A DNA stretch of 64,000 nucleotides from Methanolacinia petrolearia DSM 11571 (GCF_000147875.1 NC_014507.1:2480001-2544000), one strand, 5' to 3'; shown: positions 20,002 to 29,448, numbered from the stretch's first letter. Notes: generated from the sequence alone by a model not told the origin. Translations and numbers: made by a program.

Positions 20002-21411
20002 TCACCCCTTCCTCCATAACGAAAAGGCAAAAAGAGCAAAGACGATCAATACCGCAAGGCCGGGAACGACGAGGAGAACGGGAGTCTCCCTCGTCTCCGG
20101 GGCGGAAGTCGCCGGTAAAGTTGTCCCGGTTTCACTTGTCCCTGTTGGATTTATGTAAGGATTCAAATCGACAAACCAGATCTCGTACTCGTTCGGATCA
20201 TATCCCGGATAATCCTTCGGGTATGCCCTCACAAGAAGCTGGCCCGCATCGAACTCTATGATATCTCCGACTTCGAATTCGTCGTTTCCTGTGATTCGAA
20301 TCTCTTTCTTCTCCCCGTCCGGGATATGGTAGAGGAAGATCATGTCGTTGTTCTTGTAGATCAGGAAATCCCCGTCGACAGCAGAAGCATAAAGCCCGAA
20401 ATCCAGGTTTTCGTCATTCGTATCTATTGCAGTATTTTCGAGAGTATCCAGATCGGTTGCATAAAGAATGCTCCCGAAATGATCGATGCCCCCTTCGGTG
20501 GTTTTTCTTCCCTTCGTCCAGACGAAAAAACTGTCTGAAAAACAGTCCTGGTCGAGATTCACTCTTTCATTTGAGGCAATATCCGTTGTACCCGGAACCT
20601 CGATCCGCCCGACCTCTCCTCCTGCAAGAACAGGTTCAAGATCGAAGACAGCGATACCCTCGCTACGCAGGCGATCACCCGGTACCGGGGTGGGGATACT
20701 GATACTTTCGGAAAGAGTCGCAACCATATACTCCCCGAATCCCATCGGATCGTCAAGATCTGTCCGGTTGTCGATCAGTACCAGTTTCCCTGTGTCATGC
20801 GAATACACGTGCATACTCATAACCTCGGTAAACGGCCCATCTTCAAAATCCGAAGAGCCCTTTGCGACAACAAGATCGTTGTCTGCCAGCAGTTCATCCG
20901 TGTAGAGACGATCGGATACCTGTTCGTTACTTATTCCGTCAAAATCGAACAAACCCCGGCTGGATGCCGACGTCCCCGTAGGAGTCGTAGTGTGTATTGC
21001 AAGAGAATAATAGACGACGCCATTGGAGATATCAAGAGACCTGATATCCATCCAGAACGAGATCCAGTTATCTTTTTTTTCGGCAAGCTCCGTGGTATCG
21101 AAGGTCTTCGTCTCTCCCGTCACACTGTCCCAGATGTACACGAGCGGGTCACCGCTTTTGCTGTACGCAACCTCTCCGTTGCTGAGTCCGGCATGTGATG
21201 TTTTGTCATCTGACGGGACATAAGGGAAATGTACATCATCGTCTCCGTCAACATACGTATAAACGGTCTCGATTACCGGAAATTCCTCTGCATTGACAGG
21301 AATTGCAATGAATAAAAGGAGAACTGCCATTGAAAAAATGAATATTCCGAAAGTGCTGCACCATCTCTTTTCTGAACCAGGCTTTCCCGAAATCCCGGAC
21401 CGGATTGTCAT
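20002..21411 (-). CDS. Secreted, membrane-anchored beta-propeller-like paralogue P4
   Basis: This 469-residue protein has an N-terminal signal peptide (FIFSMAVLLLFIAIPVNA before EEFPVIET). A long extracellular part follows, made of WD/TolB-like strands such as LVYIWDSVTGETKTFDTT, ILYATDLDTLENTAIDT and IFLYHIPDGEKKEIRITGN. A Pro/Thr-rich stalk leads to one C-terminal membrane helix with a basic tail (SLWRKG). It is the most divergent of four tandem paralogues. The function is not known; a surface-layer or binding role is plausible. A copy of the 20-bp regulon motif and a TATA box (about 21435-21441) lie within 60 bases upstream. The TATA box is only about 24-30 bases from the ATG, so the mRNA may be leaderless. 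Confidence 0.82.
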   Translation of the reverse strand: MTIRSGISGKPGSEKRWCSTFGIFIFSMAVLLLFIAIPVNAEEFPVIETVYTYVDGDDDVHFPYVPSDDKTSHAGLSNGEVAYSKSGDPLVYIWDSVTGETKTFDTTELAEKKDNWISFWMDIRSLDISNGVVYYSLAIHTTTPTGTSASSRGLFDFDGISNEQVSDRLYTDELLADNDLVVAKGSSDFEDGPFTEVMSMHVYSHDTGKLVLIDNRTDLDDPMGFGEYMVATLSESISIPTPVPGDRLRSEGIAVFDLEPVLAGGEVGRIEVPGTTDIASNERVNLDQDCFSDSFFVWTKGRKTTEGGIDHFGSILYATDLDTLENTAIDTNDENLDFGLYASAVDGDFLIYKNNDMIFLYHIPDGEKKEIRITGNDEFEVGDIIEFDAGQLLVRAYPKDYPGYDPNEYEIWFVDLNPYINPTGTSETGTTLPATSAPETRETPVLLVVPGLAVLIVFALFAFSLWRKG

Positions 21412-21444: not shown

Positions 21445-21467
21445 ATTATTCCGAAAGCATCTACACG
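21445..21467 (-). promoter_or_regulatory. Regulon motif, copy a (upstream of P4)
   Basis: On the minus strand it reads GTAGATGCTTTCGGAATAAT preceded by CGT and followed by CGC and TATATAA. It differs from the consensus GTAGATACTTTCGGAATAAT at one position and holds the same distance to the TATA box as the other copies. Confidence 0.8.
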
Positions 21468-21496
21468 AAAACCGGGATAAAAAATGATAGATCCCT

Positions 21497-22888
21497 CTAC
21501 CTTCTCCCCCGCGATCCCGCGAAAAGAGCGGCGGCAGCCGGAAGTGCAGCCAGTGACACCAGAGGAGACAGCGGGGTCTCCGCAGTGACAGGGCTGTTGT
21601 TTCCCCCTCCAGTATTTCCGGTCTCCGCCGCACTCCCGGCATCAGGGTTAATAACCGTATTCAGGTCGATAAACCAGATCTCGTACTCGTTCGGATCATA
21701 TCCCGGATAATCCTTCGGGTACGCCCTCACGAGAAGCTCCCCCTCGTCGAACCCGATTATATCCCCCACCCTGAATTCGTCGTTTCCGGTGATCCTGATC
21801 TCCTTCCTATCCCCGTCCGGGATATGGTAGAGGTAAATATGATCCCCTTTCCTGTAAGTGAGATAGTCGCCATCGACGGCGTACGAATAAAACCCGAAAC
21901 TGTCAAAAATATCCCCCGGCTCATTTATTTCCTCAACCGGCTCTTCTATTCTGTCAATAACAGTGTCTTCCAGGGTGTTCAGGTCGGTTGCATAAAGTAT
22001 ATTCCAGCCATCTTCACCTGAACCATTGGCATTGGCAGATACCTCTTTCGACCAGATTAGTATGTCACCTGAAAAACAGTCCCGGCTGACTATCATGCTC
22101 CCTTCCTTATACGAATAACCGGTCGACGACGGAATTGTAACCGTCTCCACAGATCCTTCACTAAAATCCGGGGGAAGCCTGAAGACCGTCACCCCGTCTT
22201 CCGGGATTCTTACACCGGATTCGCTGGAAAGTACAGTTATTGCCACCGCAGCATTGCCGTCCCCTAACCCGATATGATCATTGGTTTCCCCACAATCATC
22301 TATGGTGATCATCTCCCCGGTATCGCGGGAATATATCCGCAACCGGTTCAGGTTTGTAAATTCTTCCCAATCATACCAGGAGAAATCCTCTATCAGAACA
22401 AGATCATTATCTGCGCACAGGTTGACCACAAGATGATCGAATATCTTCTCGTTGTTTTCCCCGTCAAAACTGAACAATCCTTCCGTAGAAGCACTTGTAC
22501 CTGTAGGTGTCGTCTTATGCGTTAAAAGAGAGTACCAAACCACACCGTCGGAGATATCAAGACACTTAATCTCCATCCAGAAAGAAATCCAGTCATCCTT
22601 TTTTACGGCAACCTCGGTGGTGTCGAAAGTCTTCGTCTCGCCCGTCCCGCTATCCCAGATGTAAATGAGAGGGTCTTTGTCTTTACTGTAAGCAATCTTT
22701 CCTCCACTCAAACCCATATGAGAAAATTTGTCACCAGCAGGATAAGTGAAAACATCACATGAATCTCCGTCGACATACGTGTAGCCGGTTTCGATTGTCG
22801 GGTACTCTTCCGCTCCGGCGGGAATCGCAAGAAGAAAAAAGATGACTGCTATTGAGAGCATTGAGAATCTGAAAGTGCAGTGCCTCAC
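21497..22888 (-). CDS. Secreted, membrane-anchored beta-propeller-like paralogue P3
   Basis: This 463-residue paralogue has the signal peptide LSIAVIFFLLAIPAGA, the same strand-rich repeats as its neighbours, and a C-terminal hydrophobic segment with an arginine tail (AALFAGSRGRR). I place the start at the GTG at 22888, one base after the stop of P2, because it gives the signal peptide a basic n-region (VRHCTFRF). Longer in-frame starts run back inside P2. About 850 bases (21876-22723) are almost identical to 24626-25473 in P1, and the signal region matches P2. That points to recent duplication and gene conversion. It is the third gene of the P1-P2-P3 operon. Confidence 0.82.
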   Translation of the reverse strand: MRHCTFRFSMLSIAVIFFLLAIPAGAEEYPTIETGYTYVDGDSCDVFTYPAGDKFSHMGLSGGKIAYSKDKDPLIYIWDSGTGETKTFDTTEVAVKKDDWISFWMEIKCLDISDGVVWYSLLTHKTTPTGTSASTEGLFSFDGENNEKIFDHLVVNLCADNDLVLIEDFSWYDWEEFTNLNRLRIYSRDTGEMITIDDCGETNDHIGLGDGNAAVAITVLSSESGVRIPEDGVTVFRLPPDFSEGSVETVTIPSSTGYSYKEGSMIVSRDCFSGDILIWSKEVSANANGSGEDGWNILYATDLNTLEDTVIDRIEEPVEEINEPGDIFDSFGFYSYAVDGDYLTYRKGDHIYLYHIPDGDRKEIRITGNDEFRVGDIIGFDEGELLVRAYPKDYPGYDPNEYEIWFIDLNTVINPDAGSAAETGNTGGGNNSPVTAETPLSPLVSLAALPAAAALFAGSRGRR

Positions 22889-22889
22889 T

Positions 22890-24245
22890 CTATCTTTTCC
22901 CCTGCAAAACTGCGAAAACGACAAACACCGCCACCAGTGCAAATACTGAAACAGAGGGAGATAACGGAGTCTCAGGATTCCCCGGTTCATTACTTCCGGT
23001 CTCAACAGCCCCGGTCTCACTCGCTTCAGCTTCAACCGGATTAATAAACGGATTCAAATCCACAAACCAGATCTCGTACTCGGACGGTTCATAACCGGGA
23101 TAATCCTTCGGATACGCCCTCACGAGAAGCTCGCCTTCGTCGAACTCGACGATATCACCGACTTCGAATTCATCGTTTCCGGTGATTCGGATCTCTTTCT
23201 TCTCCCCGTCCGGGATATTGTACAGGAATATCCCGTCGTCGTTCTTGTATATCAGGTAATCACCGTCAACAGCATAGGCATAAAGCCCAAAATCCGGATG
23301 CTCATTCGTATCTATTGCAGTATTTTCAAGAGTATCCAGATCGGTTACATAAAGAGTGCTCTGATATTGGCCATTATCACCATCTGAGGTTTTCACGCCC
23401 TTTGACCAGACAAAATATCTGTCTGAAAAACAATCCTGGTTGACATTCACCTTTTCATCAGATGAAATCTCCGTTGCATCAGGAATAACAATTTCTTTAA
23501 CTTCTCCGCCTGCAAGTGCAGGTTCTATATCAAAGACAACAATTCCATCATTTTGAACTCGATCGCCAACTGTCTCGGAAATCGAGCTAAGGGAAAGAAC
23601 CGCAACCTTATACTCCCCAAATCCCATTGGGTCATTGATCTCCGTTCGGTTGTCAATAGTAATTATATCTCCACTGTCATGAGAATACACTCGTAACCGC
23701 ATATTTTCGATATGAGGTTCCCCATCAAAATATGAAAAATCTTTTACCAAAACAAGGCTATTATCAGCCAAAAGTTCATAAATAAAATGCTGTGAAACAA
23801 TGTTTTCATTATTCGCTCCGTCAAAGCTGAATAATCCCTTCGATGATGCACTTGTGCCTGTAGGTGTAGTCTTATGTGTTGAAAGAGAGTAATACACTGC
23901 ACCTTTGGATATATCGAGACACTTAATCTCCATCCAGAAAGAAATCCAAGTATCCTTTTTTTCAGCAATTACGGTGGTATCGAAAGTATTTGTCTCACCA
24001 GTCCTATTATCCCATATATAAATAAGAGGGTCCTTGTCTTTACTATATGCAACCTCTCCATTGCTTAGCCCCATATGTGACAATTTGTCAACCGAAGGAT
24101 AAGTGAAAACATCACATGAATCTCCGTCAATGTAAGTGTAACCGGTTTCGATTGTCGGGTACTCTTCCGCTCCGGCGGGAATCGCAAGAAGAAAAAAGAT
24201 GACTGCTATTGAGAGCATTGAGATTCCGAAAGTGCTGTTACTCAC
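22890..24245 (-). CDS. Secreted, membrane-anchored beta-propeller-like paralogue P2
   Basis: This 451-residue paralogue has a signal peptide starting VSNSTFGISMLSIAV, propeller-like strands, and a C-terminal membrane helix (VSVFALVAVFVVFAVLQGKR). The start is the GTG at 24245, one base after the P1 stop; the longer open frame overlaps P1 and is not credible. Its C-terminal 290 bases (22929-23216) are nearly the same as those of P1 (24286-24573), while its middle resembles P4 and its signal region P3. It is thus a mosaic of the family. It is the middle gene of the P1-P2-P3 operon. Its function is unknown. Confidence 0.82.
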   Translation of the reverse strand: MSNSTFGISMLSIAVIFFLLAIPAGAEEYPTIETGYTYIDGDSCDVFTYPSVDKLSHMGLSNGEVAYSKDKDPLIYIWDNRTGETNTFDTTVIAEKKDTWISFWMEIKCLDISKGAVYYSLSTHKTTPTGTSASSKGLFSFDGANNENIVSQHFIYELLADNSLVLVKDFSYFDGEPHIENMRLRVYSHDSGDIITIDNRTEINDPMGFGEYKVAVLSLSSISETVGDRVQNDGIVVFDIEPALAGGEVKEIVIPDATEISSDEKVNVNQDCFSDRYFVWSKGVKTSDGDNGQYQSTLYVTDLDTLENTAIDTNEHPDFGLYAYAVDGDYLIYKNDDGIFLYNIPDGEKKEIRITGNDEFEVGDIVEFDEGELLVRAYPKDYPGYEPSEYEIWFVDLNPFINPVEAEASETGAVETGSNEPGNPETPLSPSVSVFALVAVFVVFAVLQGKR

Positions 24246-24246
24246 T

Positions 24247-25680
24247 CTATCTTTTCCCCTGCGATCCTGCGAAAACGACGGCCGCCGCCACCAGTGCAAA
24301 TACTGAAACAGAGGGAGATAACGGAGTCTCAGGATTCCCCGGTTCATTACTTCCGGTCTCAACAGCCCCGGTCTCACTCGCTTCAGCTTCAACCGGATTA
24401 ATAAACGGATTCAAATCCACAAACCAGATCTCGTACTCGGACGGTTCATAACCGGGATAATCCTTCGGATACGCCCTCACGAGAAGCTCGCCTTCGTCGA
24501 ACTCGACGATATCACCGACTTCGAATTCATCGTTTCCGGTGATTCGGATCTCTTTCTTCTCCCCGTCCGGGATATGGTAGAGGAAGATCCGGTCATCTTT
24601 CCTGTAAATAAGATAGTCACCGTCGACGGCGTACGAATAAAACCCGAAACTGTCAAAAATATCCCCCGGCTCATTTATTTCCTCAACCGGCTCTTCTATT
24701 CTGTCAATAACAGTGTCTTCCAGGGTGTTCAGGTCGGTTGCATAAAGTATATTCCAGCCATCTTCACCTGAACCATTGGCATTGGCAGATACCTCTTTCG
24801 ACCAGATTAGTATGTCACCTGAAAAACAGTCCCGGCTGACTATCATGCTCCCTTCCTTATACGAATAACCGGTCGACGACGGAATTGTAACCGTCTCCAC
24901 AGATCCTTCACTAAAATCCGGGGGAAGCCTGAAGACCGTCACCCCGTCTTCCGGGATTCTTACACCGGATTCGCTGGAAAGTACAGTTATTGCCACCGCA
25001 GCATTGCCGTCCCCTAACCCGATATGATCATTGGTTTCCCCACAATCATCTATGGTGATCATCTCCCCGGTATCGCGGGAATATATCCGCAACCGGTTCA
25101 GGTTTGTAAATTCTTCCCAATCATACCAGGAGAAATCCTCTATCAGAACAAGATCATTATCTGCGCACAGGTTGACCACAAGATGATCGAATATCTTCTC
25201 GTTGTTTTCCCCGTCAAAACTGAACAATCCTTCCGTAGAAGCACTTGTACCTGTAGGTGTCGTCTTATGCGTTAAAAGAGAGTAATAAACCACACCGTCG
25301 GAGATATCAAGACACTTAATCTCCATCCAGAAAGAAATCCAGTCATCCTTTTTTACGGCAACCTCGGTGGTGTCGAAAGTCTTCGTCTCGCCCGTCCCGC
25401 TATCCCAGATGTAAATGAGAGGGTCTTTGTCTTTACTGTAAGCAATCTTTCCTCCACTCAAACCCATATGAGAAAATTTGTCAGTCGCAGGAAAGGAGAA
25501 AAGATCACACGTATCTCCGTCGACATAGGTGTATCCTGTTTCGATTACAGGAAATTCCTCCGCGCTGGCGGGAATCACAATGAAAAAAAGGATGACTGCT
25601 ATTAAAAGAATAAATGCTCTGAGAGTGCGGCAACACCCGCTTACCGCATCCACATCATCGGAAATCTCAGACCAAATCAT
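24247..25680 (-). CDS. Secreted, membrane-anchored beta-propeller-like paralogue P1
   Basis: This 477-residue protein is the first gene of the P1-P2-P3 operon. It has an N-terminal signal peptide (FILLIAVILFFIVIPASA), extracellular strands of the type IYIWDSGTGETKTFDTTEV and ILYATDLNTLEDTVIDRI, and one C-terminal membrane helix with a basic end (QGKR). The middle is nearly identical in DNA to P3 and the end to P2. Regulon motif copy b and a TATA box (TATATAA, about 25706-25712) lie just upstream, facing the divergent copy c. The role at the cell surface is not known. Confidence 0.83.
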   Translation of the reverse strand: MIWSEISDDVDAVSGCCRTLRAFILLIAVILFFIVIPASAEEFPVIETGYTYVDGDTCDLFSFPATDKFSHMGLSGGKIAYSKDKDPLIYIWDSGTGETKTFDTTEVAVKKDDWISFWMEIKCLDISDGVVYYSLLTHKTTPTGTSASTEGLFSFDGENNEKIFDHLVVNLCADNDLVLIEDFSWYDWEEFTNLNRLRIYSRDTGEMITIDDCGETNDHIGLGDGNAAVAITVLSSESGVRIPEDGVTVFRLPPDFSEGSVETVTIPSSTGYSYKEGSMIVSRDCFSGDILIWSKEVSANANGSGEDGWNILYATDLNTLEDTVIDRIEEPVEEINEPGDIFDSFGFYSYAVDGDYLIYRKDDRIFLYHIPDGEKKEIRITGNDEFEVGDIVEFDEGELLVRAYPKDYPGYEPSEYEIWFVDLNPFINPVEAEASETGAVETGSNEPGNPETPLSPSVSVFALVAAAVVFAGSQGKR

Positions 25681-25714
25681 CTACTGAATAGATAATTTTT
25701 CTCATTATATAGCG

Positions 25715-25734
25715 TTTATTCCGAAAGTACCTAC
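25715..25734 (-). promoter_or_regulatory. Regulon motif, copy b (upstream of P1-P2-P3)
   Basis: On the minus strand it reads GTAGGTACTTTCGGAATAAA, followed by CGC and TATATAA. Copy c faces it 25 bases away, so this is a divergent regulatory region. The gap 25681-26028 otherwise shows no gene: it holds copies b and c, their TATA elements and about 220 bases of AT-rich leader before 26029. Confidence 0.82.
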
Positions 25735-25759
25735 AAATAAATTTTTTTGTTAAAACAAT

Positions 25760-25779
25760 GTAGATACTTTCGGAATAAT
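25760..25779 (+). promoter_or_regulatory. Regulon motif, copy c (upstream of S1)
   Basis: GTAGATACTTTCGGAATAAT is the exact consensus. It is followed by a weaker AT-rich TATA candidate (TTTATTTTAAA, 25781-25791). The nearest plus-strand gene starts 250 bases downstream at 26029, giving an unusually long leader if this is its only promoter. Confidence 0.75.
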
Positions 25780-26028
25780 ATTTATTTTAAATTATATCTT
25801 ACCGCGATCTTGTGAACCACATGTCCAACACTGCATCTGAAATAAAAATTTCAACAAATTGATACTTCCCAAACCTGATTTTCAGGAAAATAAGAAGATA
25901 TACCGATCGCAGGTGTGATTCACACCATGGCCGAAGATATGAATCATAAAACAGGGCTACTAAAAATTGTTGGGAATAATTGATCAATATTACGGAATTC
26001 AGATCTATTCGGCAAAAACTAAAAAAAG

Positions 26029-26808
26029 ATGATAAAAATGAATTCAAAAGCAATAAAATTTTCAATAGCTGCCTGCCTCATCCTATTGATAGTTGCCGTA
26101 TCAGGAGTTGCAAGTGCATACTCTATATCGGCACAAGCAGACGAGAAACAGCTTGAGATCATAAATGAGATCTACGGGCAGGATATGACACAGGGAGAAT
26201 TCTGGGAAATGGTTTTTCCAGAAGAATATGCATTAATGAAAAAGAATCTCTCAGATGAAGAGTTCAAAGAATTCTGCAGCACAGAGAAATATTGGGGAGA
26301 TGACTACCAGGAGTTACCCTACGGAGCTAACGTATGGGACAAGAACGGCCCGGTCTCCCTTGCATCACTCACCGAAGAACAGAAAAGCAGTTATGGCCTT
26401 GAAAACCTGAAAACAGATAATAGTGGATATATCATACAGGGATCAAATTCTGAAGCAAGTTATCTTGTAGACAAATTATGCACACTACTTGACAGTAAGA
26501 GTGCGCTTGTATTATATGCAGATAATCTTGGGAGAAGTGGTTCTTCAATTACCTATAGCGGCTCAGGTAAAGTTTCAGGATATACAACTTCAACATCATT
26601 AACTCTAACTGTTGAACTGTACGGAGATGACTCAAGAGTTGCATATGTTGAACGTTATGGAAAAAAAGGTGAAACTGTTACAGCAAGTTCTGCTCATGCA
26701 AGTCCAAGAACAGGCGTACTGTACCAATCTAAAGTTACCGGAACATCGACAAATCCCAGTCTCTCTGGTTACACCTGGTCGCCGGCAAGACAGTGGCCGT
26801 TTAGTTAA
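26029..26808 (+). CDS. Small secreted protein S1 of the YWG-ELPYGAN family
   Basis: This 259-residue protein has a signal peptide (FSIAACLILLIVAVSGVASA, residues 11-30). It then has a conserved domain of about 80 residues with EIYGQDMTQGEFWEMVFPEEY and the signature YWGDDYQELPYGANVWD (88-104). The same domain occurs in the next two genes. A serine/threonine/glycine-rich C-terminal part (SGSGKVSGYTTSTSLTLTV) is specific to S1 and looks beta-rich. No membrane anchor follows, so it is probably released or bound to the surface. I do not recognise the family. The start could also be the ATG at 26038. A hairpin after the gene may terminate it. Confidence 0.8.
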   Translation: MIKMNSKAIKFSIAACLILLIVAVSGVASAYSISAQADEKQLEIINEIYGQDMTQGEFWEMVFPEEYALMKKNLSDEEFKEFCSTEKYWGDDYQELPYGANVWDKNGPVSLASLTEEQKSSYGLENLKTDNSGYIIQGSNSEASYLVDKLCTLLDSKSALVLYADNLGRSGSSITYSGSGKVSGYTTSTSLTLTVELYGDDSRVAYVERYGKKGETVTASSAHASPRTGVLYQSKVTGTSTNPSLSGYTWSPARQWPFS

Positions 26809-26884
26809 AGTATATTGATGAGAGACTGGCATGGCAGTTAAACTCTGACTGCACAGCGCCTCGATCAAACCAAATCCAAAAAAA

Positions 26885-26908
26885 GGGGGGCCTGAAAAGC
26901 TCCCCCTC
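26885..26908 (+). terminator. Hairpin after S1
   Basis: GGGGGGCC and GCTCCCCC form an imperfect stem around TGAAAA, followed by TCTTATT, about 75 bases after the S1 stop. The next unit has its own promoter motif, which supports termination here. Confidence 0.5.
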
Positions 26909-26958
26909 TTATTCTGTTACCTGAAAAATTTACAAAATAAAATCAAAAACACCGTCCC

Positions 26959-26980
26959 GTGTAGATACTTTCGGAATAAT
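26959..26980 (+). promoter_or_regulatory. Regulon motif, copy d (upstream of S2)
   Basis: The exact 20-base consensus GTAGATACTTTCGGAATAAT is at 26961-26980, with GT before it. GCATATTTAAGC follows as the TATA element. The S2 start lies 93 bases downstream, leaving a leader of about 60 bases. Confidence 0.85.
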
Positions 26981-27072
26981 GCATATTTAAGCTTCAATCT
27001 AATCATTGCCTGTAGATTGCCGGCATAGTGCATGCAGGCAACTGACATACAGACAAAAAGGAGACGGAAGAC

Positions 27073-27645
27073 ATGAAAATAAACGGACTGAAAATAACCG
27101 CAGCGATATCATTTCTGCTGCTGATCTGGGCGGTAACCGGAGCCGCGGGTGCGTACTCCATATCCGCCGAAGCGAACGAAAGCCAGCTTGAGATCATAAA
27201 GGAGATCTACGGGCAGGAGATGACACAGGGAGAGTTCTGGGCAACAGTGTACCCCGAAGAGTACGCGATGATGAAAGAGAACATGTCGCCTGCAGAATTC
27301 GAAAACTTCTCGAACATGGAAAAATACTGGGGGGACGACCATCCAGAACTCCCGTACGGCGCTAATGTGTGGGACGAAAACGGGCCGGTGAACCTCAACG
27401 AGATAAGCCCGGAGGAAAAAGAGGAATTCGGACTGGATGGAGTAATCGTCGACGACAGCGGGTACATCATACTCGGTTATGACAACGACGTCGAAGGAGC
27501 AAAAGCAAGGCTTGAAAGCTACGGGGACGTAAGCGGGGAAAATTTCCTCTCGGCCCTTGCAACAGCAGGTATTTACGGGAACTCACCGCTTAGTATCTCC
27601 GCCGGGATGATCGAAGCACTCACAGGATTCTTCAGGATCGCCTGA
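27073..27645 (+). CDS. Small secreted protein S2 of the YWG-ELPYGAN family
   Basis: This 190-residue protein is a close paralogue of S1 in its first 120 residues. It has a signal peptide (ISFLLLIWAVTGAAGA), EIYGQEMTQGEFWATVYPEEY, and YWGDDHPELPYGANVWDENG near 85-103. Its C-terminal part differs from S1 and is short and helical (NFLSALATAGIYGN). There is no membrane anchor. AAGGAGAC lies upstream of the ATG, and regulon motif copy d stands 93 bases upstream. Copy 2 of the two-hairpin repeat begins five bases after its stop. The function is unknown. Confidence 0.82.
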   Translation: MKINGLKITAAISFLLLIWAVTGAAGAYSISAEANESQLEIIKEIYGQEMTQGEFWATVYPEEYAMMKENMSPAEFENFSNMEKYWGDDHPELPYGANVWDENGPVNLNEISPEEKEEFGLDGVIVDDSGYIILGYDNDVEGAKARLESYGDVSGENFLSALATAGIYGNSPLSISAGMIEALTGFFRIA

Positions 27646-27650
27646 AAGAC

Positions 27651-27715
27651 AAAAACGTTTATGAAACAAAGGTTTCATGGACTGTTTCATGTAAATCACA
27701 ACGTGATTTTCATGT
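27651..27715 (+). repeat. Two-hairpin interspersed repeat, copy 2
   Basis: It is 63 of 65 bases identical to 4401-4465. The first hairpin (ATGAAAC-AAAG-GTTTCAT) is unchanged; the second has one stem mismatch (CACA instead of CACG). Like copy 1, it directly follows a plus-strand stop codon. Confidence 0.8.
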
Positions 27716-27767
27716 AAACAATTCACCTCTTTTTTTCAAAACTACGAAGATAAGATGACAGAAATCA

Positions 27768-27791
27768 CCGTGTAGACGGTTTCGGAATAAT
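27768..27791 (+). promoter_or_regulatory. Regulon motif, copy e (upstream of S3 and its regulator)
   Basis: GTAGACGGTTTCGGAATAAT (27772-27791) differs from the consensus only in the ATAC segment. It is followed by GCCTATATATG, a strong TATA element with the same spacing as in copies a, b and d. The S3 start is about 110 bases downstream. Confidence 0.8.
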
Positions 27792-27902
27792 GCCTATATA
27801 TGACCCACATTATATAGTTCATTCATTATTCAAAAACCCCGACTGCCGGTAAAAATACCAGGTAGTTTTATGTTGCAACAAAATTCAGAGGGCAGGCGAA
27901 AG

Positions 27903-28607
27903 ATGTTTAAAAGAAGAAAAACCGGAATAAAATGCCTCTTCATTGTTCTTGCTTCGGCCCTCCTCATCTCACAGGCAACAGTCGCGGAAAACCTGACAGG
28001 AGAAGAGAACGACATAATCGATCCTATAAACGAACTCTATGGGAAAAATATCACGAACGGCGAATACCTCGAAGCTGCAAACCCCGGATACCTCGAAACC
28101 CTGAGAGGGGAGATGGGCGAAGATGAGTTCGAAGAATATTACAACACGCAAAAATACTGGGGAAACAAAAACCCGGAACTTCCTTACGGCGCAAACCTGT
28201 GGGACGAAAACGGACCGGTGAATCTCAGCGCATTGAATGAAACGGAGAAAGAGAAGTACGGGCTGGAATCGGCCCTGATCGGGGGCGACGGTTATGTCGT
28301 CCTCGGGTACATGAAAAGAGAGATCGAAGAAGACGAATCGATCCCGTTCTATAAACAAATGCCCGAAGGAGTTGAAAACTTCACCTGCGATCTCAACTGG
28401 ATCAATCCCGAAAGCGAACTGAAACTAACAATATTTGCACCCGACGGAATGATGGGACCGTATTACGACGATTCCGACGGGCTCACAAACAGCAGGATCT
28501 TCTTCAGGATTTCAAGACCGCAGGGTATCGAAAGCGGGGAGTGGTATGCGGTTATCGAGGCAGAAAAAACAGAAGAAGAGCAGCCGTTCATCTTCCTGAT
28601 GTATTGA
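27903..28607 (+). CDS. Small secreted protein S3 of the YWG-ELPYGAN family
   Basis: This protein of about 234 residues has a basic n-region (MFKRRKTGIK) and a signal peptide (LFIVLASALLISQATVA). It then has the family domain: NELYGKNITNGEYLEAANPGY and YWGNKNPELPYGANLWDENG. Its C-terminal part (about 110 residues) is unrelated to S1 and S2 and looks beta-rich (ESELKLTIFAPDGMMGPYYDD), ending IEAEKTEEEQPFIFLMY. The ATG at 27903 is preferred to one 11 codons upstream. The regulator gene starts ten bases after its stop, so the two share a transcript from motif copy e. The family's function is unknown. Confidence 0.8.
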   Translation: MFKRRKTGIKCLFIVLASALLISQATVAENLTGEENDIIDPINELYGKNITNGEYLEAANPGYLETLRGEMGEDEFEEYYNTQKYWGNKNPELPYGANLWDENGPVNLSALNETEKEKYGLESALIGGDGYVVLGYMKREIEEDESIPFYKQMPEGVENFTCDLNWINPESELKLTIFAPDGMMGPYYDDSDGLTNSRIFFRISRPQGIESGEWYAVIEAEKTEEEQPFIFLMY

Positions 28608-28617
28608 GGTATGATAT

Positions 28618-29448
28618 ATGAGAAACAGCCGGAATAAAAAAGTCGCTTTGTGGTTTTTCACGGGGGTATTTATTATAATATTCTCCGCCTTTACGACCGG
28701 GGTTTCCGCGATCGAGACCGGCGGGTATGTCGTTGAACCGGCATACGGCATTTCACCCGATTATACCTCAATTTATTTTGGAGAACTCTCAGGCGGTTAT
28801 GACTTCCTTGAAGGACCCGGACCAGAGCAGATAGAATTTCAGGACCTTCCCCTGGCAATCATTCTCATCCTTCTCGGAATAGGAATTGCCGCATTCATGA
28901 TCCAACCCCTGAAACTGTTTTTATCAGGAAAAATTGCACTTATTCCCGGGCTGTCCAGGTTAAAGAAGACGAATCTCCTGGACAACGAATCCCGGAGAAA
29001 GGTATACGAGACAATTCTTCAAAATCCCGGCATACAGCTTTGTGAAATTGAGAAAAAGACAGATCTTACCAACAAGAATGCCGAATACCACGTAAAGAAA
29101 CTCCTGGGCCACAATATGATCGTATTCAGGCAGACTTCGAGAGGAAAGGGATATTTCAAAAATTCCGATTCATATTCATCAGAAGAAAAACTGCTCTACA
29201 TCCATTCCAAAAATCCTACAGAGAAAAGAATAATAGAAATAATCCACGAAAATCCCGGAATTACACGAAAGGAGCTCAGCGAAAGGATACATATCTCCGC
29301 ACCCTCGATAAGCTGGTACATCGCAGGGCTTATCGGGGACAATATCATCCGGAAGGAAAAGAAGGGAAACAGGGTCCATTATTATGTCAGCGAATACCTG
29401 AAGAACGACCTCTTCAACATAATCGGAGCTGAGAGCACCGTTGCCTGA
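28618..29448 (+). CDS. Membrane-bound double winged-helix transcription regulator
   Basis: This 276-residue protein has an N-terminal hydrophobic segment (VALWFFTGVFIIIFSAFTTGVSA), a short outside loop, and a second membrane helix (LPLAIILILLGIGIAAFMI, about 80-100). The cytoplasmic part holds two ArsR/MarR-like winged helices: RRKVYETILQNPGIQLCEIEKKTDLTNKNAEYHVKKL (given in pieces, about 123-160) and KRIIEIIHENPGITRKELSE (about 200-245) with SISWYIAGLI. Such one-component membrane regulators are common in methanogens. It lies in the same transcript as S3, at the end of the locus with five shared promoter motifs, so it is the natural candidate to bind them. That link is inference. Confidence 0.85.
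   Translation: MRNSRNKKVALWFFTGVFIIIFSAFTTGVSAIETGGYVVEPAYGISPDYTSIYFGELSGGYDFLEGPGPEQIEFQDLPLAIILILLGIGIAAFMIQPLKLFLSGKIALIPGLSRLKKTNLLDNESRRKVYETILQNPGIQLCEIEKKTDLTNKNAEYHVKKLLGHNMIVFRQTSRGKGYFKNSDSYSSEEKLLYIHSKNPTEKRIIEIIHENPGITRKELSERIHISAPSISWYIAGLIGDNIIRKEKKGNRVHYYVSEYLKNDLFNIIGAESTVA

Follow-up and report, generated by a model that had tools for sequence, protein, structure and literature searches.

A bipartite promoter box of a surface-protein gene cluster in Methanolacinia petrolearia and a membrane-tethered winged-helix protein as its probable regulator

As a rule, activators of transcription in archaea sit 5' of the BRE, from where they recruit TBP or TFB, and repressors bound within the promoter block these factors (PMC5937170, PMC5512572). 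Recruitment of TFB as a means of activation has been proposed for EarA and shown for TFB-RF1 (PMC5512572, PMC5937170). The closest described architectures include the GvpE UAS of haloarchaeal gas-vesicle promoters, a 20-nt bipartite element adjacent to the BRE of a divergent promoter pair (PMC4390858), and the ArnR boxes of Sulfolobus acidocaldarius, which have the inverted-repeat sequence TCGAC-N5-GTCGA, lie 5' of the BRE between -43 and -84 and are both needed together (PMC6396743).

The DNA examined here, referred to as the window, is a stretch of 64,000 nucleotides from Methanolacinia petrolearia DSM 11571 (NC_014507.1:2480001-2544000). An initial annotation had described five copies of a 20-bp motif in it, and a search of the window at up to three mismatches recovered exactly these five, at the coordinates and on the strands claimed (Table 1); 100 dinucleotide-preserving shuffles of the window gave no match. 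The TATA element reported to follow copies a, b, d and e at nearly constant spacing was found, but copy c had been left out: TATTTTAA stands there at box position 24, like the other TATAs, so that the layout is common to five of five copies rather than four of five. The reported contact with the BRE was also borne out, the box lying directly 5' of the TATA element with its AATAA over the BRE position. The box can be refined to TGTAGA-N7-GGAATAA-N4-TATA, which abuts the BRE or overlaps it. In the whole genome, one contig of 2,843,290 bp, the same tolerance gave six matches, the five cluster copies and one elsewhere (G000:C1:2100845, three mismatches). The latter sits within a protein-coding ORF and was rejected as a regulon member; the confinement to the cluster that had been expected of a genome-wide search thus holds bar this one genic match. 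A known RNA element was likewise discarded, as Rfam gave no match.

Table 1. Positions of boxes, TATA elements and genes in the window, and of class III features in other sequences.
Feature	Position	Strand	Remarks
Box copy a, GTAGATGCTTTCGGAATAAT	21445..21464	-	before gene A; 1 mismatch
TATA of copy a, TATATAA	21435..21441	-	4 bp past GGAATAA
Box copy b, GTAGGTACTTTCGGAATAAA	25715..25734	-	before genes B1-B2-B3; 2 mismatches
TATA of copy b, TATATAA	25705..25711	-	
Box copy c, GTAGATACTTTCGGAATAAT	25760..25779	+	before gene C; divergent from copy b; 0 mismatches
TATA-like element of copy c	25783..25790	+	same offset as in the other copies
Box copy d, GTAGATACTTTCGGAATAAT	26961..26980	+	before gene D; 0 mismatches
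TATA of copy d, TATTTAA	26984..26990	+	
Box copy e, GTAGACGGTTTCGGAATAAT	27772..27791	+	before genes E and R; 3 mismatches
TATA of copy e, TATATAT	27795..27801	+	
Gene A	20002..21411	-	469 aa; N-terminal signal/TM, propeller-like body (low-confidence model), C-terminal TM anchor
Gene B1	24247..25680	-	paralogue of A; N-terminal signal/TM, C-terminal TM
Gene B2	22890..24392	-	third paralogue, downstream of B1; listed ORF overlaps B1
Gene B3	21497..23035	-	fourth paralogue; listed ORF overlaps B2
Gene C	26029..26808	+	259-aa secreted protein, long leader
Gene D	27073..27645	+	190-aa secreted paralogue of C
Gene E	27870..28607	+	secreted; N-terminal part common to C and D; C-terminal PPC-like beta domain (low-confidence model)
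Gene R	28618..29448	+	proposed cognate regulator; starts 10 bp after E, same strand
Class III loop-peptide locus L145	5244-6574		
Class III loop-peptide locus L155	4810-6181		
Class III loop-peptide locus L103	857-2235		
Dispersed class III box L184 (G009)	C1:714700		
Dispersed class III box L186 (G009)	C3:1704		
Dispersed class III box L190 (G009)	C4:1377		

All five boxes precede genes for secreted or membrane-anchored proteins, as had been annotated; the description of these proteins as paralogues is correct within each family only, because the propeller-like A/B proteins and the C/D/E proteins belong to two unrelated families. Hydrophobic segments occur at both termini of A and B1-B3 and at the N-terminus only of C, D and E. 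B1, B2 and B3 are arranged head to tail behind copy b, the true starts of B2 and B3 being probably near 24218 and 22861, respectively. The PPC-like domain of E (pLDDT 61) and the propeller-like body of A (pLDDT 55) come from low-confidence structure models and serve as hints only. The start codons of A and B1 lie 53 and 54 nt from the box start, and those of propeller genes in other genomes mostly 51–54 nt, distances which suggest that the A and B1 mRNAs are leaderless if transcription begins about 26 bp past the TATA element.

The leader of gene C contains a perfect inverted repeat (GGTGTGA-T-TCACACC, window 25911-25930), which is possibly a second operator or an RNA element; the block around it is kept in two other genomes (G001 and G014) and, with one change, in a third (G009). 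Two 300-nt blocks of B3 and B1 (window 22443-22742 and 25193-25492) are 98% identical, against 71–79% for other paralogues, which suggests recent gene conversion or duplication.

Repeated copies before paralogous genes, some with blocks 98% identical, and present in both orientations, might be relics of gene duplication or inverted repeats for recombination (phase variation). This is very improbable. Within the genome the boxes are 75–100% identical in pairwise comparison while the 40 bp upstream (25–45%) and the 39 bp downstream (21–36%) are near chance identity, so that duplication of the genes does not by itself account for the boxes; on these flank identities the duplication relic is rejected, and the box is moreover common to unrelated gene families. 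Against both readings, orientation and TATA distance are constant in 13 genomes, and no inverted repeat of at least 40 bp occurs in the region. Cluster and boxes recur in three genomes (G001, G014, G009), where the two divergent copies are likewise offset by 45 bp. In four others (G023, G017, G025, G012), where R is only 33–38% identical, the middle of the box has diverged, but TGTAGA and GGAATAA are kept at about the same TATA distance. Among 36 aligned boxes, the columns of TGTAGA, TTT, GGAATAA and TATA stand out sharply from an almost flat surrounding profile, with near 2 bits at TGTAGA and GGAATAA and mostly 0–0.4 bits in the flanks; the position of TATA is fixed, 35 boxes having T at position 24 and all 36 having it at position 26.

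The protein encoded behind E, R, has two hydrophobic segments (residues 9–27 and 77–95), an exposed loop of about 50 aa and two cytosolic winged helices, and matches HTH_24 and HTH_HVO_0163_N (residues 123–245) above the curated Pfam cut-offs. It unites a DNA-binding domain and transmembrane segments in one protein, as in membrane-bound one-component HTH regulators. A strict box plus TATA pattern (GTAGANNNNTNNGGAATAAN{2,5}TATWTA), searched over 232 Methanomicrobiales genomes, gave 19 matches in 10 genomes, all at the same gene cluster, which always encodes a two-TM tandem winged-helix protein, and the reversed pattern gave none in the same set. Two genomes that were new from this search (G165, G187) both carry the E-R cluster. 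Class-I R proteins (E 2e-86 or better; next best 3e-49) occur in 14 genomes, which include all 10 with the strict box (Fisher p 1e-14, an optimistic value because the genomes are related and the calculation ignores this). The regulator that had been proposed at 28618 accompanies the box without exception wherever this could be checked: boxes occur at 13 of 13 class-I R loci (40 boxes, seven genera), a fourteenth locus, cut by a contig end, being left out. Loci first found by the R protein alone (Methanoculleus sp. FWC-SCC1; UBA456, a Methanocorpusculaceae MAG; and G160) also have boxes, one copy in UBA456 with two mismatches.

Some of this has to be read with care, as neighbouring promoters and genes are partly expected to co-occur from shared descent and synteny, and any of the nine other R-like proteins of the genome could in principle bind the box. 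Another soluble factor or R-like paralogue could be the binder, R being linked to the cluster but working elsewhere, and the 10 R-family matches in the genome speak for such a possibility. It is nonetheless improbable, considering that box and class-I R occur together at 13 of 13 loci in seven genera though synteny and gene content vary, and that other R clades go with other boxes. The case for pairing R with the box is built on the conserved box between diverged flanks, the unrelated families of target genes and the regulator clades with different boxes. The term regulon used in the initial annotation is well supported as regards the cis element; as regards the trans factor, R is strongly implicated by the comparison of sequences.

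The best explanation (probability about 0.7) is that the box is the operator of a surface-protein regulon, probably bound by membrane-tethered R and including R's own gene. The TGTAGA-N7-GGAATAA operator would end about 4 bp upstream of TATA with its 3' end over the BRE. R, made behind the E gene under copy e and presumably co-transcribed with it, would control A, B1-B3, C, D, E and itself, its two winged helices reading the two half-sites and its short exposed loop sensing envelope or surface proteins. Bound R would help TFB/TBP to bind, leading to activation, which is considered somewhat likelier than repression (about three to two) because the site is directly upstream of and overlapping the BRE in every promoter and because archaeal activators usually sit 5' of the BRE, with the GvpE UAS as the nearest architectural match; EarA and TFB-RF1 serve as further analogues for this sign. 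R could instead act as a repressor that excludes TFB by occupying the BRE and is released by a surface signal passed through the membrane, as a regulator bound within the core promoter is mostly a repressor, acting by steric hindrance (PMC5937170, PMC5512572), and autorepressor genes, like that of R, often lie inside their own regulons. Repression is judged rather unlikely, given that most of the box is upstream of the BRE, the usual position of activators, and that the GvpE UAS, closest to the box in architecture, serves activation (PMC4390858). The position at the BRE and the fixed TATA spacing would also suit an alternative TFB that reads the element as an extended BRE. That reading is scarcely credible: the element reaches about one helical turn past the BRE, and the genome has a single TFB gene (two repeats within one ORF), a profile search of it finding no second, which excludes an alternative TFB as far as the genome shows.

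Binding of the box by R also fits into a broader pattern, as the boxes of paralogous E-R clusters differ in sequence but occupy the same position or one close to it (class II, GTTGGAY..TCAGAGA; class III, TGTARA..GGCGTAAGA), and the regulators of classes I, II and III fall into distinct clades, that of class III being next to class I. The class II pattern (GTTKGAYRRNNNTCAGAGA-N5-TATWTA, up to one mismatch) has 11 matches in 7 genomes, 10 of them at E-R clusters, and its reversed form has none; the eleventh (G026) is on a contig fragment and adjoins a C-like gene, R not being seen there. The class III pattern (TGTARANNNTNNTGGCGTAAGA) has 13 exact matches in 5 genomes plus two with one mismatch, one of these inside an ORF, to be read against a noise level of 8 reversed matches at up to one mismatch. 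Several class III boxes of one genome (G009) are distant from R and precede genes for secreted or lipoprotein-like products, so the class III regulon would extend past its own cluster and may act in trans across the genome. At three of these dispersed boxes (Table 1) the lipoprotein-like genes behind the boxes follow putative membrane permease genes. In another genome (G003 C1:1152938-1168074; L180, L187, L189, L191) class III boxes precede the genes of a family of small secreted proteins that have almost the same signal peptide (MKKFNFKKIGILLAMMLVAGAALVGP) but differ in their mature parts, like a diversifying surface-protein array. Upstream of further E-like genes, a direct repeat (TTGTTCAAGRGCATGGTGAAAG) is present at the promoter in L150, and long inverted repeats adjoin TATA in L151 and L156.

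The boxes of classes I and III have TGTARA in common but not the second half, and their regulators resemble each other in the second recognition helix ([AG]P[SA]) but not in the first (KN versus TKT). For G003, the TKT helix led to the prediction of a GGCGTAA half before the promoter was read, and this half was found present. An '[AG]PS' helix of wHTH2 is not enough to predict TGTAGA, as L095 and L096 have the helix and no TGTAGA upstream, so that the assignment of winged helices to half-sites, based on few sequences, is to be taken as hypothetical only. In class III regulators, a stretch of 12 residues in the exposed loop is almost the same as a peptide close to the N-terminus of the adjacent secreted protein (EKNGYIVRSGYD and TKKGYVVTSGYD, respectively; score reached by 0–4 of 500 shuffles; loci in Table 1), which suggests mimicry or a shared partner. 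Mimicry of the E protein by the R loop was rejected as a general rule, being true for class III, x_265 and x_2253 but not for class I.

The cluster is probably one of several such modules. On a more tentative level, Methanomicrobiales may possess surface modules that form one family, each self-contained, orthogonal to the others and made of secreted proteins, their own membrane-tethered tandem-winged-helix regulator and their own bipartite operator at or near the BRE. The operators (TGTAGA-GGAATAA, TGTARA-GGCGTAAGA, GTTGGAY-TCAGAGA) would have diversified in step with the recognition helices, one winged helix per half-site, and the loop would monitor the cognate surface proteins, providing transmembrane homeostatic feedback.

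To our knowledge, few archaeal transcription factors have known operators, and methanogens encode many membrane-bound winged-helix proteins to which the literature searched assigns no target. The cluster offers a candidate regulator with its operator and probably the complete regulon, and two paralogous regulator-operator pairs can be set beside it, so that short DNA fragments and one soluble domain allow direct tests of the DNA specificity of tandem winged helices and of the transmembrane control of TFB recruitment.

In relation to the systems described, no account of the box or of R was found in the open-access literature searched, and no operator was found there for winged-helix proteins of HTH_HVO_0163_N and HTH_24, the two families that R matches. 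The box and the GvpE UAS are alike in their length of about 20 nt, bipartite structure, position adjoining the BRE, strict distance, divergent pair and regulator encoded in the regulated cluster; however, the UAS consists of two 8-nt parts with a 4-nt spacer instead of TGTAGA-N7-GGAATAA, and GvpE is a soluble, leucine-zipper-like protein whereas R is a membrane winged-helix protein. No GvpE-like gene was found among the cluster proteins, the encoded regulator being the winged-helix protein. ArnR and ArnR1 resemble R in function, as membrane-bound one-component HTH regulators with surface targets and dedicated promoter boxes (PMC6396743), but their target is the archaellum and the ArnR boxes differ from the present box in sequence and in position relative to the BRE. 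The sites of EarA (Methanococcus) and TFB-RF1 (Pyrococcus) lie, like the box, directly upstream of a weak BRE, and TFB-RF1 also targets its own operon, similar to the autoregulation proposed for R (PMC5512572, PMC5937170). Their motifs are unlike the box (four 6-bp sites for EarA; TCTG-N5-CAGA for TFB-RF1), and neither protein is described as membrane-tethered, unlike R. The architecture of the M. petrolearia promoters is already known from these systems, and the operator/regulator family is new.
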